Shown: positions 1 to 3,370 of the stretch, piece after piece | Layout of the letters: each line of letters starts with the position of its first letter | How positions within the stretch are numbered: position 1 is the first letter of the stretch | NCBI RefSeq assembly: GCF_001202025.1 | Contig: NZ_LGHS01000066.1 | Location: 1-64,000 of the forward strand | Length of the DNA stretch: 64,000 nt | From: Pseudorhodobacter aquimaris | GTDB lineage: Bacteria; Pseudomonadota; Alphaproteobacteria; Rhodobacterales; Rhodobacteraceae | Direction: 5' to 3' | Translations under genes and position numbers: made by a program | The notes under the pieces: model-generated | Databases searched by the model: none | Seen by the model: the letters and a program-made list of their open reading frames with translations, nothing else | What the model was told of the DNA's origin: nothing

Positions 1-1030
1 GGTGAACGGCAGCGTGCGCATCACACGACAGATCGCGGGACTTTCGTGCCGCTGGTGTTCGCGCCGGGCGAGGCTTTCCAGTTCGACTGGAGTGAGGACT
101 GGGCCTATGTCGGCGGTGAGCGCATCAAGCTGTAGGTCGCCCATATCAAGCTGTCGCATAGCCGCGCATTCTTGGTGCGGGCCTATCTGCTGCAAACACA
201 TGAGATGCTGTTTGATGCCCACTGGCACGGGTTCCGCGTTTTTGAGGGCGTCCCCGGGCGCGGCATCTACGACAACATGAAGACAGCCGTCGACCGGGTT
301 GGCGTCGGTAAACGGCGCGATGTAAATGCGCGGTTTCTGGCCATGACCAGCCACTACGTCTTCGATCCCGAGTTCTGCAATCCGGCGGCGGGCTGGGAGA
401 AGGGTCAGGTTGAGAAGAGCGTGCGTGATGCCCCCTCTCGCGCATTCGAGCATGCGCGAGAGGGGGCCTGATCACTTTCGATCGCAATCGCTATTCCGTG
501 CCCGCCAGCTTTGCGAACCGGCCGGTGAGCCTGCGCATCTACCCCGACCGGTTGGTGAGTGTCGCCGAGGGGCATGTGATCTGCACACATCAGCGGATCA
601 TTGAGCGATCCCACCGCCAGCCTGGGCGCATCATCTATGATTGGTGCCATTATCTGGCTGTCGTTCAGCGCAAACCCGGGGCGCTGCGCAATGGCGCGCC
701 CTTCGTCGAAATGCCCGAACCCTTCCGCTTGCTGCAAGCGAAGATGCTGCGGCAGCCCGGTGGAGATCGGGAGATGGTCGATATCTTGTCACTGGTCTTG
801 CATCACGATGAACAGGCGGTGCTCTGCGCGGTAGAATTGGCATTGGAGGCTGGCGTGCCGACCAAGACCCATGTGCTGAACCTGCTGCATCGCCTGTTGG
901 ATGGTAAGCTGACTGACCAGCCAGACGTGGACCCTCCAGCTGCCTTGCCGCTGAGTAAGGAGCCAGAGGCCAATGTCGCACGGCTCATGATGGGTTGCGG
1001 GTCCAGAAAGGAGCGCGCGATGCGTCATGA
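1..1030 (+). pseudogene. istA: IS21-family transposase istA, decayed 3' part
   Basis: Remnant of the DDE transposase of an IS21-family insertion sequence; its 5' end lies outside the window. The frame starting at base 1 reads FQFDWSEDWAYVGGERIKL, then an in-frame TAG at 133-135, then an integrase-core segment with GVPGRGIYDNMKTAVDR. Around 430-467 a hairpin replaces a block that is present in related transposases, and the reading frame changes; the conserved ITFDRNRYSVPASFANRP part resumes at about 471 in another frame. A further one-base slip near 985 would restore a C-terminus ending GARDAS with its TGA overlapping the istB start. With at least three lesions no functional transposase can be made. 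Family assignment is by recalled similarity and by the adjacent istB. Confidence 0.85.
430..467. repeat. 38-bp palindrome (16-bp perfect arms) inside the istA remnant
   Basis: Left arm 430-445 (starting GCCCCCTCTCGCGCAT) is perfectly complementary to right arm 452-467, with a six-base spacer TCGAGC. It lies exactly where a conserved block of the transposase (my estimate is on the order of 100 codons) is missing, so it either inserted there or marks a deletion junction. It has no T-tract and is not an obvious terminator. No second copy was seen in the window. Confidence 0.85.
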
Positions 1031-1075
1031 TCCCGCTGGAGCTGCCATCGTCATCATGCTGCGCAGCCTGAAGAT

Positions 1076-1109
1076 GCGTCACGCCGAAGGCGTGCTTGCA
1101 GCACGACGC
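1076..1109. repeat. Small palindromic insert, copy 1
   Basis: A 34-base unit bounded by GCGTC and GACGC; the likely inserted part is 27 bases (1079-1105) at a GCG/ACGC junction. It can form two mutually exclusive hairpins: CACGCC-GAA-GGCGTG (1080-1094) and CGTGCT-TGC-AGCACG (1091-1105). Removing it restores an istB-like reading (LRSLKM, two residues, MAQAV). In istB it is translated in frame without a stop. Confidence 0.75.
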
Positions 1110-1163
1110 ATGGCGCAGGCTGTGCAGGATCTGCATGAGCAAGGGTCGCCCGCATTTGAAGCC

Positions 1164-1197
1164 GCGTCACGCTGAAAGCGTGCCTCTGGCACGACGC
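1164..1197. repeat. Small palindromic insert, copy 2
   Basis: Second copy, same 34-base length and same flanking GCG/ACGC junction (likely insert 1167-1193). It differs from copy 1 at six positions: four are two compensatory base-pair changes (one in each hairpin stem), two are in a loop. Hairpins are CACGCT-GAA-AGCGTG and CGTGCC-TCT-GGCACG. It sits in another codon phase than copy 1 and so introduces the TGA at 1173. Removing it restores FEAATPILSQ, the expected istB reading. Confidence 0.75.
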
Positions 1198-1981
1198 CGA
1201 TCCTGTCGCAGATGCTCAAAGCGGAAATGGCCGAACGCGAGGTGCGCTCTATCGCCTATCACATGAAGGCGGCGCGCTTTCCGGCTTATAAAGACCTCTC
1301 TGGCTTTGACTTCGCTGCCAGCGAGATCCGTGAAGCCTTGGTCCGCCAACTCCATCGTTGTGAGTTCATGGACGCTGCCGAGAATGTGGTGCTGATCGGA
1401 GGCCCGGGAACAGGAAAGTCGCATGTTGCAACCGCCCTCGGCATTCAGGCCATTGAGCATCACCGCAAGCGTGTGCGCTTCTTCTCGACGGTTGAACTGG
1501 TCAATGCGCTGGAGCAGGAAAAGGCACTGGGTAAGGCCGGAAAGATCGCTGAGGCATTGGTCAAAACTGACTTGGTGATACTGGATGAGCTGGGATATCT
1601 GCCGTTCAGCGCCTCTGGCGGCGCGCTGCTCTTCCATCTTCTGAGCAAACTGTATGAACGCACCAGCGTCATCATCACCACCAACCTGAGCTTCAGTGAA
1701 TGGGCCAGCGTCTTTGGCGATACCAAAATGACCACAGCACTGCTCGATCGTCTCACCCATCGCTGCCATATCCTCGAGACCGGCAATGACAGCTACCGCT
1801 TCAAGGCAAGCTCCGAAACAGCAAAGAAAAAGCGAAAGGAGGCAACAGCATTGACGCCATCATAATCAGCAGATCATAACGAACAGGTGGGTCAGTTCTC
1901 AGTGACAATCAACAGCGAAGGTCTCTGAAAGAACTCGAAAATGGGGCGTAGATAAGAGTGCAGCACTGATATTAAGATTGA

Positions 1982-3370
1982 TTTGACGAATGTCTCCTTC
2001 GACGGATCGCACCGCAGCATCTTGCCGGGAAGCCGAAGGTCAACCTCGAAAAGCTGACCTTGTTGCCGCTGCCACCATCTCCGGAGGTCTGGACCAGCCA
2101 GGTTGCGCTGCCTGCGACCTCTGAAACATTCGAGGATGCCGAAGGCGCTTGGCGTGAACTCACCGTAGAGGCGATAGCGCCCGCGGATCGCCCGGACCCT
2201 GCCTTCCGGAAGCACTTCACCACACGTGGCGGAGTCCTTTCCTTCGATGATCTTGCAAAGTCCGAGGCAAGCCTCGGTGCGCCGGGCGCAGTGATGTTCA
2301 CCTCCGAGCAGGGCGGCACCCCAGTGATCGAACGACTGGAGCGCCCGATCTATGCGCTCGATATCCATCCCGAGGGCAAGGGCTTCGCGACACGGTCGAA
2401 AACGACTATCCTGACCGTCTATCGTGAGGACCTGAAAGTCGATTTCGAGACAGACCTTTCCGCCACGCCCGAAGTCGCAGCAGGGCGCCGCCGTCTCGAT
2501 CTTGACGTGGAAGGTGGTTTCCTTTGGGGTGAACCCCACTTGGCGCTCAACTGCATCGCGCTCAGCCCTAGCCGGGACCGCTATCTTTACACGCATGTGG
2601 ATGAAGCGTGGTGTATCGACCGGGACGGAAAACCTCTCTGGGGCGTCCGCATGCCTGAGTGTCCTGTAGAGACCTATCATCAGACCTTCGAAGTGGGCGG
2701 CATACGCGGGCATACGGGAACCGCCGCGGAAATCGAGGAGGCACTCGAAAAGCTTGAGCTTGCGCTACCGGTAACGCCGGATGAGATCCGGCAGAAATAC
2801 CGCGGCTTGGTTCGTCAGCTGCACCCGGACCTCAACCCCGGCAACGAAGAGTGGATGAAGGCGGTCAACGCGGCTTACGAGGCGCTGACTGGGGCCAGCC
2901 ACGATGATCTGCAGGGTAAGGGAAATGCCGAAGACTTGCTGACGTTCTCCGCCACCGTGACGTTCATGACTGGCGGCGGTCCTGACCGCCTTCAGGCTGC
3001 GGCCTTCTCGGGGCGTGGCGACTCGGTGTTGCTGGGAACCTCCCAGGGGCGGGTCCTGCGCATCGATGCTTCCGGCAAGCCGATCGCTCTATACGATGTG
3101 GGCAGCGCGCCGATCCGGGTCCTGGACACGGATCGCTACCTCTACATCCAGACATTCACCCGGCTTTACGTGCTCGAAGGGAACCGCCTAGTGGGGCTGC
3201 AGGACTGTCCGAATTTCGGGGGGCAGCTCAGTCATACGTTGTGCGAGAGATGCATCAGAGTGCAACGTTGCCCCGATATCAGTTGCTTACCGCTGATCAT
3301 CAGTAACATCGTTAGGTTGTTTCGCATCGCATCTTATCTGTTACACTGTTCGGCTATCGGTACAGCGTAA
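1982..3370 (+). pseudogene. J-domain protein with flanking repeat/propeller-like segments, 5' end lost
   Basis: An open frame from just after a TGA at 1979-1981 to 3370, without a credible ATG near its beginning (the only early option is TTG at 2060), directly downstream of the IS21 remnant, so the true N-terminus is probably missing. A J-domain lies near the middle: TPDEIRQKYRGLVRQ, the HPD signature in QLHPDLNPGNEE and a closing helix NAAYEALTG; such domains recruit Hsp70 (DnaK). On both sides are segments resembling beta-propeller or PQQ-like blades (YALDIHPEGKGFAT, LGTSQGRVLRIDASGKPIA, YIQTFTRLYVLEGN). After about 3215 the frame becomes Cys/Ile-rich and unlike the rest, suggesting that the 3' end is foreign too. 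Function unknown. Confidence 0.6.

Follow-up and report, generated by a model that had tools for sequence, protein, structure and literature searches.

Within the istB gene of an IS21 element, a 64,000-nucleotide stretch of the Pseudorhodobacter aquimaris genome (contig NZ_LGHS01000066.1, positions 1 to 64,000; hereafter the window) carries two short, similar palindromic units. An earlier sequence-only reading placed these at 1076-1109 and 1164-1197 and proposed a very small palindromic mobile element, comparable in idea to Rickettsia palindromic elements. We asked what the units are, where they begin and end, and how they may have entered the gene. Empty sites in related genomes and dispersed copies in many others essentially support a mobile element. 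On the evidence below, the units are probably copies of a non-autonomous, 30-bp palindromic element that is related to CGTC-tagged REPs and spreads by loop replacement.

Two hairpin pairs within istB

Both 34-base units are present as described, and they differ at the six sites that had been listed: a C:G to T:A change in the first stem, a T:A to C:G change in the second, and two loop bases. Table 1 gives the 30-base elements within them, as delimited by the comparisons described below. The two copies lie 88 bases apart within istB, the downstream part of which (1212-1865) encodes a 217-aa IstB ATPase part matching Pfam IstB_IS21 (PF01695) at 6.6e-72. The coding consequences were also read correctly: the frame stays readable through copy 1, as the peptide RHAEGVLAARR, and copy 2 brings in a TGA at 1173-1175 that stops it. 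The same frame is open again afterwards.

Table 1. Coordinates of the element copies, their parts and their host gene in the window, and of one tandem array in another genome. The CGTC tags of copies 1 and 2 follow the definition in the descriptive text of PMC3733652.
Feature	Position	Strand	Remarks
istB of IS21 element, host of copies 1 and 2	1020..1865	+	frame, PF01695
Element copy 1, 30-mer GTC...GAC	1078..1107	+	between ATGC and GCAT; covariance model 55.7 bits
Copy 1 left CGTC tag (its C is part of the target)	1077..1080	+	inverse GACG 1105-1108
Copy 1 hairpin A, CACGCC-GAA-GGCGTG	1080..1094	+	window sequence, pair counts
Copy 1 hairpin B, CGTGCT-TGC-AGCACG	1091..1105	+	overlaps hairpin A by CGTG
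Element copy 2, 30-mer GTC...GAC	1166..1195	+	between GC and GC; covariance model 54.8 bits
Copy 2 left CGTC tag	1165..1168	+	inverse GACG 1193-1196
Copy 2 hairpin A, CACGCT-GAA-AGCGTG	1168..1182	+	window sequence, pair counts
Copy 2 hairpin B, CGTGCC-TCT-GGCACG	1179..1193	+	window sequence, pair counts
Five-unit tandem array	L230 = G480 C6:103748-103885		

The hairpins of each copy had been called mutually exclusive. This holds for the full-length form, in which the 6-bp stems A and B have CGTG in common, but not for the predicted fold of both 42-base DNA strands, in which a shortened three-way junction accommodates both hairpins. The fold energies of these strands are unexceptional (z -1.82 and -0.91, with 6 and 40 of 200 shuffles equally stable). 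The stop codon at the copy 2 hairpin led us to consider translational bypassing, of which T4 gene 60 is the type case; no matching in-frame take-off and landing codons were seen, and this explanation was set aside.

Thirty bases in place of three

The boundaries of the element were taken from related loci with empty sites. In another genome of the same genus (G006, locus L182), the adjoining flanks are identical to the window up to both junctions; where the window has GTCACGCCGAAGGCGTGCTTGCAGCACGAC this locus has CAG (site 1), and where the window has GTCACGCTGAAAGCGTGCCTCTGGCACGAC it has CAT (site 2). A plasmid locus of Roseicitreum antarcticum (L188) has CGG at site 1 and CAT at site 2. Relative to both loci, each window site therefore contains 30 bases in place of 3, a net gain of 27. 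This swap explains why the earlier reader could delete 27 bases and keep the frame, and it replaces the junctions that such a deletion implied. Uninterrupted relatives lack the bases of the two units, the opposite of what would have spoken against the earlier reading. A similar exchange is found in a putative IS110-type transposase of the own genome, where a 29-base variant takes the place of 3 bases present in a Pseudorhodobacter turbinis plasmid (L222); the net gain of 26 shifts the transposase frame, yet this IS is multi-copy.

We then extended the comparison of occupied and empty sites to all fetched loci. An empty homologue, defined by nine bases on each side with at most 2 mismatches each, the two innermost bases equal and a gap of up to 12, was present for 50 of 145 sites with both flanks. 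The replaced length is 3 at 26 of these sites, 5 at 10, 4 at 4, 6 at 3, 10 at 3, 2 at 2, and 8 and 1 at 1 site each. The 14 sites with lengths other than 3 or 5 include self-matches or poor alignments. The 50 sites are partly non-independent: istB site 1 recurs in L017 and L074 and the IS110 site in L216, L217, L220 and L221, several 3-base sites are a single event seen in multiple IS copies, and some matches fall inside the same locus (e.g., L042 and L123). Under a looser rule, 60 sites gave replaced lengths of 3 at 31, 5 at 9, 2 at 8, 0 at 4, 1 at 3, 6 at 2, 4 at 2 and -1 at 1. Empty sites with identical adjoining bases are those in L182 for both window copies, in L222 for the IS110-type copy and in L121 for the istA copy of L155, as well as a second palindrome within L098. 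At the best-supported sites a target-site duplication is absent, and 3 bases are replaced.

The bases flanking the element are complementary beyond shuffles, with a mean stem of 1.74 versus 1.19 and a top value of 1.46 in 1000 shuffles (n=155), and commonly take the form GC-NNN-GC or CC-NNN-GG. No complementary flanking pair is found in 33 of the 155 copies, so not every target can have been a pre-formed hairpin. The 30-mer is preceded by C and followed by G in 124 of 151 copies on each side. Many copies are embedded in longer palindromes (GCGCCCG...CGGGCGC, for example), of which L072 and L098 contain versions that lack the element. Two arrays among the 230 loci repeat the element in tandem with a 27-base period, with four units in L123 and five in L230 (Table 1); the junctions read GTC, and GAC ends the final unit only. 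Such arrays would be expected if a new element took the place of the GAC that ends an older copy, and slippage could also make them.

Element anatomy and covariation

The 30-mer has the consensus GTC-ACGCY-NNA-RGCGT-GCYTNYRGC-AC-GAC. One strand carries CGTC and the hairpin ACGCC-GAA-GGCGT, the other CGTC and the hairpin GTGCC-NNN-GGCAC, and these two units (A and B) overlap at GT. The terminal tag is present in most copies, with G in 135 and C in 124 of 151 before the fixed TC; for its inverse, C follows the fixed GA in 137 and G in 124 of 151. Stems are 5 to 6 bp long, starting with A:T then C:G in unit A and with G:C then T:A in unit B, and are longer only where host flanks happen to pair. 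Loops have 3 bases in the main form and 5 where pair 18:22 is open, and an unpaired CCA-like tail is absent. Every sampled copy is an inverted dimer with its tags outside, a form that the search patterns required.

A covariance model was built from 71 of 127 distinct 34-mers, leaving out seven likely chance loci (L026, L075, L091, L119, L139, L146 and L149). In the window it scores copies 1 and 2 with E-values of 4.4e-15 and 8.4e-15, both copies being among the 71 rows that built it. The innermost stem pairs vary with compensation: columns 10:14 are C:G in 60 sequences, U:A in 6, A:U in 1 and unpaired in 4, and columns 21:25 are C:G in 39, U:A in 19, U:G in 3 and unpaired in 10. Because the sequences had been collected by means of a pattern, most stem columns had no room to vary and carry no information. 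None of 500 shuffles matched the observed covariation score or the count of cells altered on both sides. Two of the five measures did not stand out, as 275 of 500 shuffles did as well for pairs with a change on both sides and 404 of 500 for further pair types.

The compensatory differences between copies 1 and 2 are real, as had been claimed, but they need not have arisen in istB. Identical 28-base cores occur in other genera, the copy 1 type twice in G304 and the copy 2 type in G069. Judged by their sequences, copies 1 and 2 are two subtypes of the element, and the window seems to have received two separate insertions.

Distribution among genomes

Many unrelated sites carry the element. Among relatives, a 34-base pattern with up to 3 mismatches is present in 6 of 195 genomes including the own genome, with 0 for the backward-pattern control. 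Across the family, a 28-base pattern with up to 1 mismatch is present in 51 of 394 genomes, again including the own, with 117 hits in total versus 7 for the pattern read backwards. The covariance-model search of own and related genomes proposed by the sequence-only reading gave at least 16 copies in the own genome and carriers in at least 10 of 142 genomes of a class sample (own included; E up to 0.01; mostly weak), both of which are lower bounds, with at most 49 candidates scored per genome and stricter filters. G304 and G484 are apparently one genome, given their identical positions, and are counted twice among carriers.

In named genomes, at least 120 stretches match. Among the matches listed, 57 are from Rhodobacterales, 48 from Acetobacteraceae, 7 from Hyphomicrobiales, 3 from other alphaproteobacteria and 1 from an unassigned proteobacterium, and of 4 outside the class at least some are probably chance; these orders are presumed from the organism names. 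Rickettsia is absent among the matches listed. The highest counts (up to 2 mismatches) are 27 hits each in Plastoroseomonas hellenica and Falsiroseomonas oryziterrae, 24 in Roseomonas ponticola (tandem units included), and 22 each in Roseomonas oleicola and Pseudaestuariivita rosea, and the backward control gave 3 hits over the 17 genomes counted. Seven stretches of viral contigs match, two of them taken as chance; phage records gave no match to one consensus 30-mer, and plasmid records gave 5 matches to another. These copies in other genomes meet the objection that a unit confined to this istB would be no mobile element.

Host genes and multiplication with insertion sequences

Copies are found in either orientation, and besides IS21 their locations include other IS families, intergenic DNA and the genes dnaE and uvrC. 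Pfam scans of ORFs beside or over copies (129 and 120 ORFs, of 305) gave Transposase_20 (IS110) 7 times and IstB 5 times. Further transposases, including those of IS91 and IS66, and individual housekeeping genes were also seen. In Hyphomicrobium sp. SB8, a dnaE frame of 1236 residues (L104:1-3708) contains two copies and a uvrC frame (L081:2-1930) contains one; both frames stay open across larger palindromic repeats in which the element lies. Like Rickettsia palindromic elements, the element thus occurs in frame within open genes. The dnaE alignment with other genomes of this genus is interrupted at residues 180-220 in G494 and around residues 920-970 in G489, G490, G493 and G494, which is where copies sit inside larger CTCTCCCC...GGGGAGAGGG-type repeats. 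In G489 and G490 the alignment crosses residues 180-220 without a break, with a single stop in each; the first insert may be common to these genomes or simply bridged there. Other long ORFs over copies (MTTB, ABC-3 and M29) may be over-extended at their starts.

The copies of the own genome comprise 6 in IS21 and 10 at a single site of the IS110-type transposase. Three IS21 copies carry both units (C66, C58 and C24), and a fourth piece (C64, L004) is cut by the contig end inside unit 1; neither unit is present in the IS21 paralogues on C13, C15 and C73. The host of the ten copies (C14, C19, C27, C28, C46, C50, C65, C67, C70 and C76; L216-L221 and L226-L229) is classed as IS110-type from PF02371 hits beside most of them, a provisional assignment. 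Eight of the ten share an identical 29-mer and the same surroundings, and two (L218 and L219) have diverged at the same site.

Relation to known repeats

The closest resemblance is to the CGTC-tagged REPs, a group to which the descriptive text of Di Nocera et al. 2013 (PMC3733652) assigns Rickettsia RPE-4 and RPE-6 along with Neisseria dRS3. The comparison with Rickettsia palindromic elements was thus apt, as RPE-4 and RPE-6 have the same outer tag. According to the same text, CGTC repeats have no dedicated transposase, are missing in Acetobacteraceae, and occur in uvrB and dnaE of R. conorii. The 30-mer is like them in its CGTC tag, its occurrence mainly in alphaproteobacteria and its intragenic copies. 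Inverted dimers with outer tags, which predominate among CGTC repeats, may be a further likeness, given that the search patterns asked for this form, as may the lack of an associated transposase (PF01797 in 3 of 46 carriers). Its palindromic sites resemble the dimers inside palindromes described there for H. neapolitanus.

The differences, as far as the descriptions in PMC3733652 go, are in the stems (5-6 bp, versus 8-9 bp with the first two pairs A:T), in the loops (mostly 3, versus 4-5 bases), in the lack of a CCA-like tail, in the overlap of the units as a fixed 30-mer, and in the occurrence of the 30-mer in Acetobacteraceae. Since stem, loop and tail all differ, we do not place it in any of the four CGTC families, a separation made against text descriptions rather than consensus sequences. 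The 30-mer is probably kin to the CGTC-tagged REPs, as an extreme relative.

Other small repeats share fewer features. REPIN/BIME and the GTAG REPs moved by RAYTs are likewise small inverted hairpin pairs that are scattered and non-autonomous, but the 30-mer has no GTAG tag, its carriers mostly lack a detectable Y1 gene (not found in 43 of 46), its count does not exceed 27 hits in any of the 17 genomes counted, and it replaces 3 or 5 bases at many targets. The small dispersed repeats of Nostoc, reportedly described by Elhai et al. in 2008 as mobile, about 21-27 bp long and nested in other repeats, would be alike in size, mobility and nesting, although they belong to another phylum. MITEs are also non-autonomous, with inverted ends and with genic and intergenic copies, but the 30-mer shows no target duplication, is 30 bp long and has no parental IS identified. 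Text searches of the literature, made by wording rather than by sequence and with most subscription papers outside their reach, found no description of the 30-mer family.

Candidate movers

A RAYT-type Y1 transposase (PF01797) was detected in 3 of 46 carriers versus 3 of 34 other genomes, with the same search detecting the E. coli control. Among 20 carriers, PF02371 was detected in 13 and PF01695 in 19, these being host genes or weak hits; PF01695 is weak (E about 1e-8 to 1e-5) in G477, G478, G482 and several more. The 7 carriers in which PF02371 was not found include three with 22 to 27 element hits. With PF02371 missing there and PF01695 often weak, an IS110 or IS21 enzyme was rejected as an obligatory mover. 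Clustering of ORFs over 126 loci returned, as top recurrent representatives, ABC and TctC transporters, solute-binding proteins, DctM and dehydrogenases. Nine of 10 scanned recurrent ORFs are of these transporter, solute-binding or dehydrogenase types and the tenth matched nothing; host IS110 genes also recur.

Proposed mechanism and alternatives

The target of the element would be a tiny hairpin or cruciform, the loop of which would be swapped for the hairpin pair of the element, either through an enzyme supplied in trans or through a template switch during replication. Copies landing in IS genes would then be multiplied along with the IS, and the own genome has such a pattern, with three IS21 copies carrying both units and ten IS110-type copies carrying one at the same site. 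Less firmly than the mobile element itself, we propose that this may be a new mode of DNA insertion, in which the 3- or 5-base loop of a hairpin is exchanged for a 30-base hairpin pair with stems intact and nothing duplicated, the actor being an enzyme or a replication reaction. Replication alone is possible but somewhat doubtful: a polymerase at a small palindrome would jump to an element copy with similar GC-rich flanks, copy the pair and return. This would need none of the tested transposase families (PF01797 and PF02371, not found in 43 of 46 and 7 of 20 carriers, respectively) and would draw on the C and G that sites have in common around the 30-mer (124 of 151 copies on each side). The replaced length is, however, fairly constant (3 or 5 at 36 of 50 sites), as are the ends, and the many genera reached are not obviously expected from rare jumps. 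An enzyme and template switching would be expected to leave an identical trace.

Mobilization in the manner of REPs, by a RAYT/TnpA-REP or another IS200/IS605 Y1 enzyme, is very unlikely. A hairpin with a terminal tetranucleotide, inverted dimers and intragenic copies do resemble REPs as PMC3733652 describes them, but the tag is CGTC rather than GTAG, and the PF01797 counts, as low in carriers as in non-carriers against a positive E. coli control, bring a RAYT mover close to refutation. A connection with a REP-associated tyrosine transposase, as proposed in the sequence-only reading, was thus not borne out. We consider it highly improbable that the units are a regulatory RNA or attenuator of IS21, in which two switching hairpins control istB; each copy does have two overlapping hairpins and the compensatory differences, but this reading is at odds with copies in both orientations, in other IS families, in intergenic DNA and in dnaE and uvrC, with own-genome IS21 paralogues that cover the sites and lack copies, and with 0 Rfam matches at E up to 1 (window 1-3000). 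Two similar copies so close together in one gene could also reflect local duplication or chance palindromes within istB, an explanation we find scarcely credible given identical cores of each subtype separately in other genera and a backward control of 0 in 195 genomes.

The exchange of a hairpin loop for the 30-mer bears on a wider question, as the 2013 description of CGTC-type palindromic repeats had no known means by which they move (PMC3733652, in its descriptive text). If true, loop exchange could be the missing route by which these repeats, which have no known transposase, spread. In the 30-mer family, occupied and empty sites can be compared, and they show a defined trace of 30 bases gained and mostly 3 or 5 lost at small palindromes. 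This trace, the many named hosts (isolates that are presumably cultivable) and the multi-copy IS copies make the spread of such repeats directly testable. The family adds to the published picture, as described in PMC3733652, on two points: the missing transposase and the absence from Acetobacteraceae.

Other palindromes near the element

The GC-rich palindrome GCGCCCG...CGGGCGC recurs with and without a central element in L072, L098, L138, L161 and other loci. At L044:2182-2209, the element lies within an apparent canonical CGTC repeat (CGTCGTTCCCGC ... GCGGGAATCCAG), so that two palindromic families are nested. In the istA gene of the window's own IS, a palindrome, CCCCCTCTCGCGCAT...ATGCGCGAGAGGGGG, occupies positions 430-470, where L188 has about 215 bases of istA. 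This break lies near the istA site that the element occupies in L133, L155 and L225.
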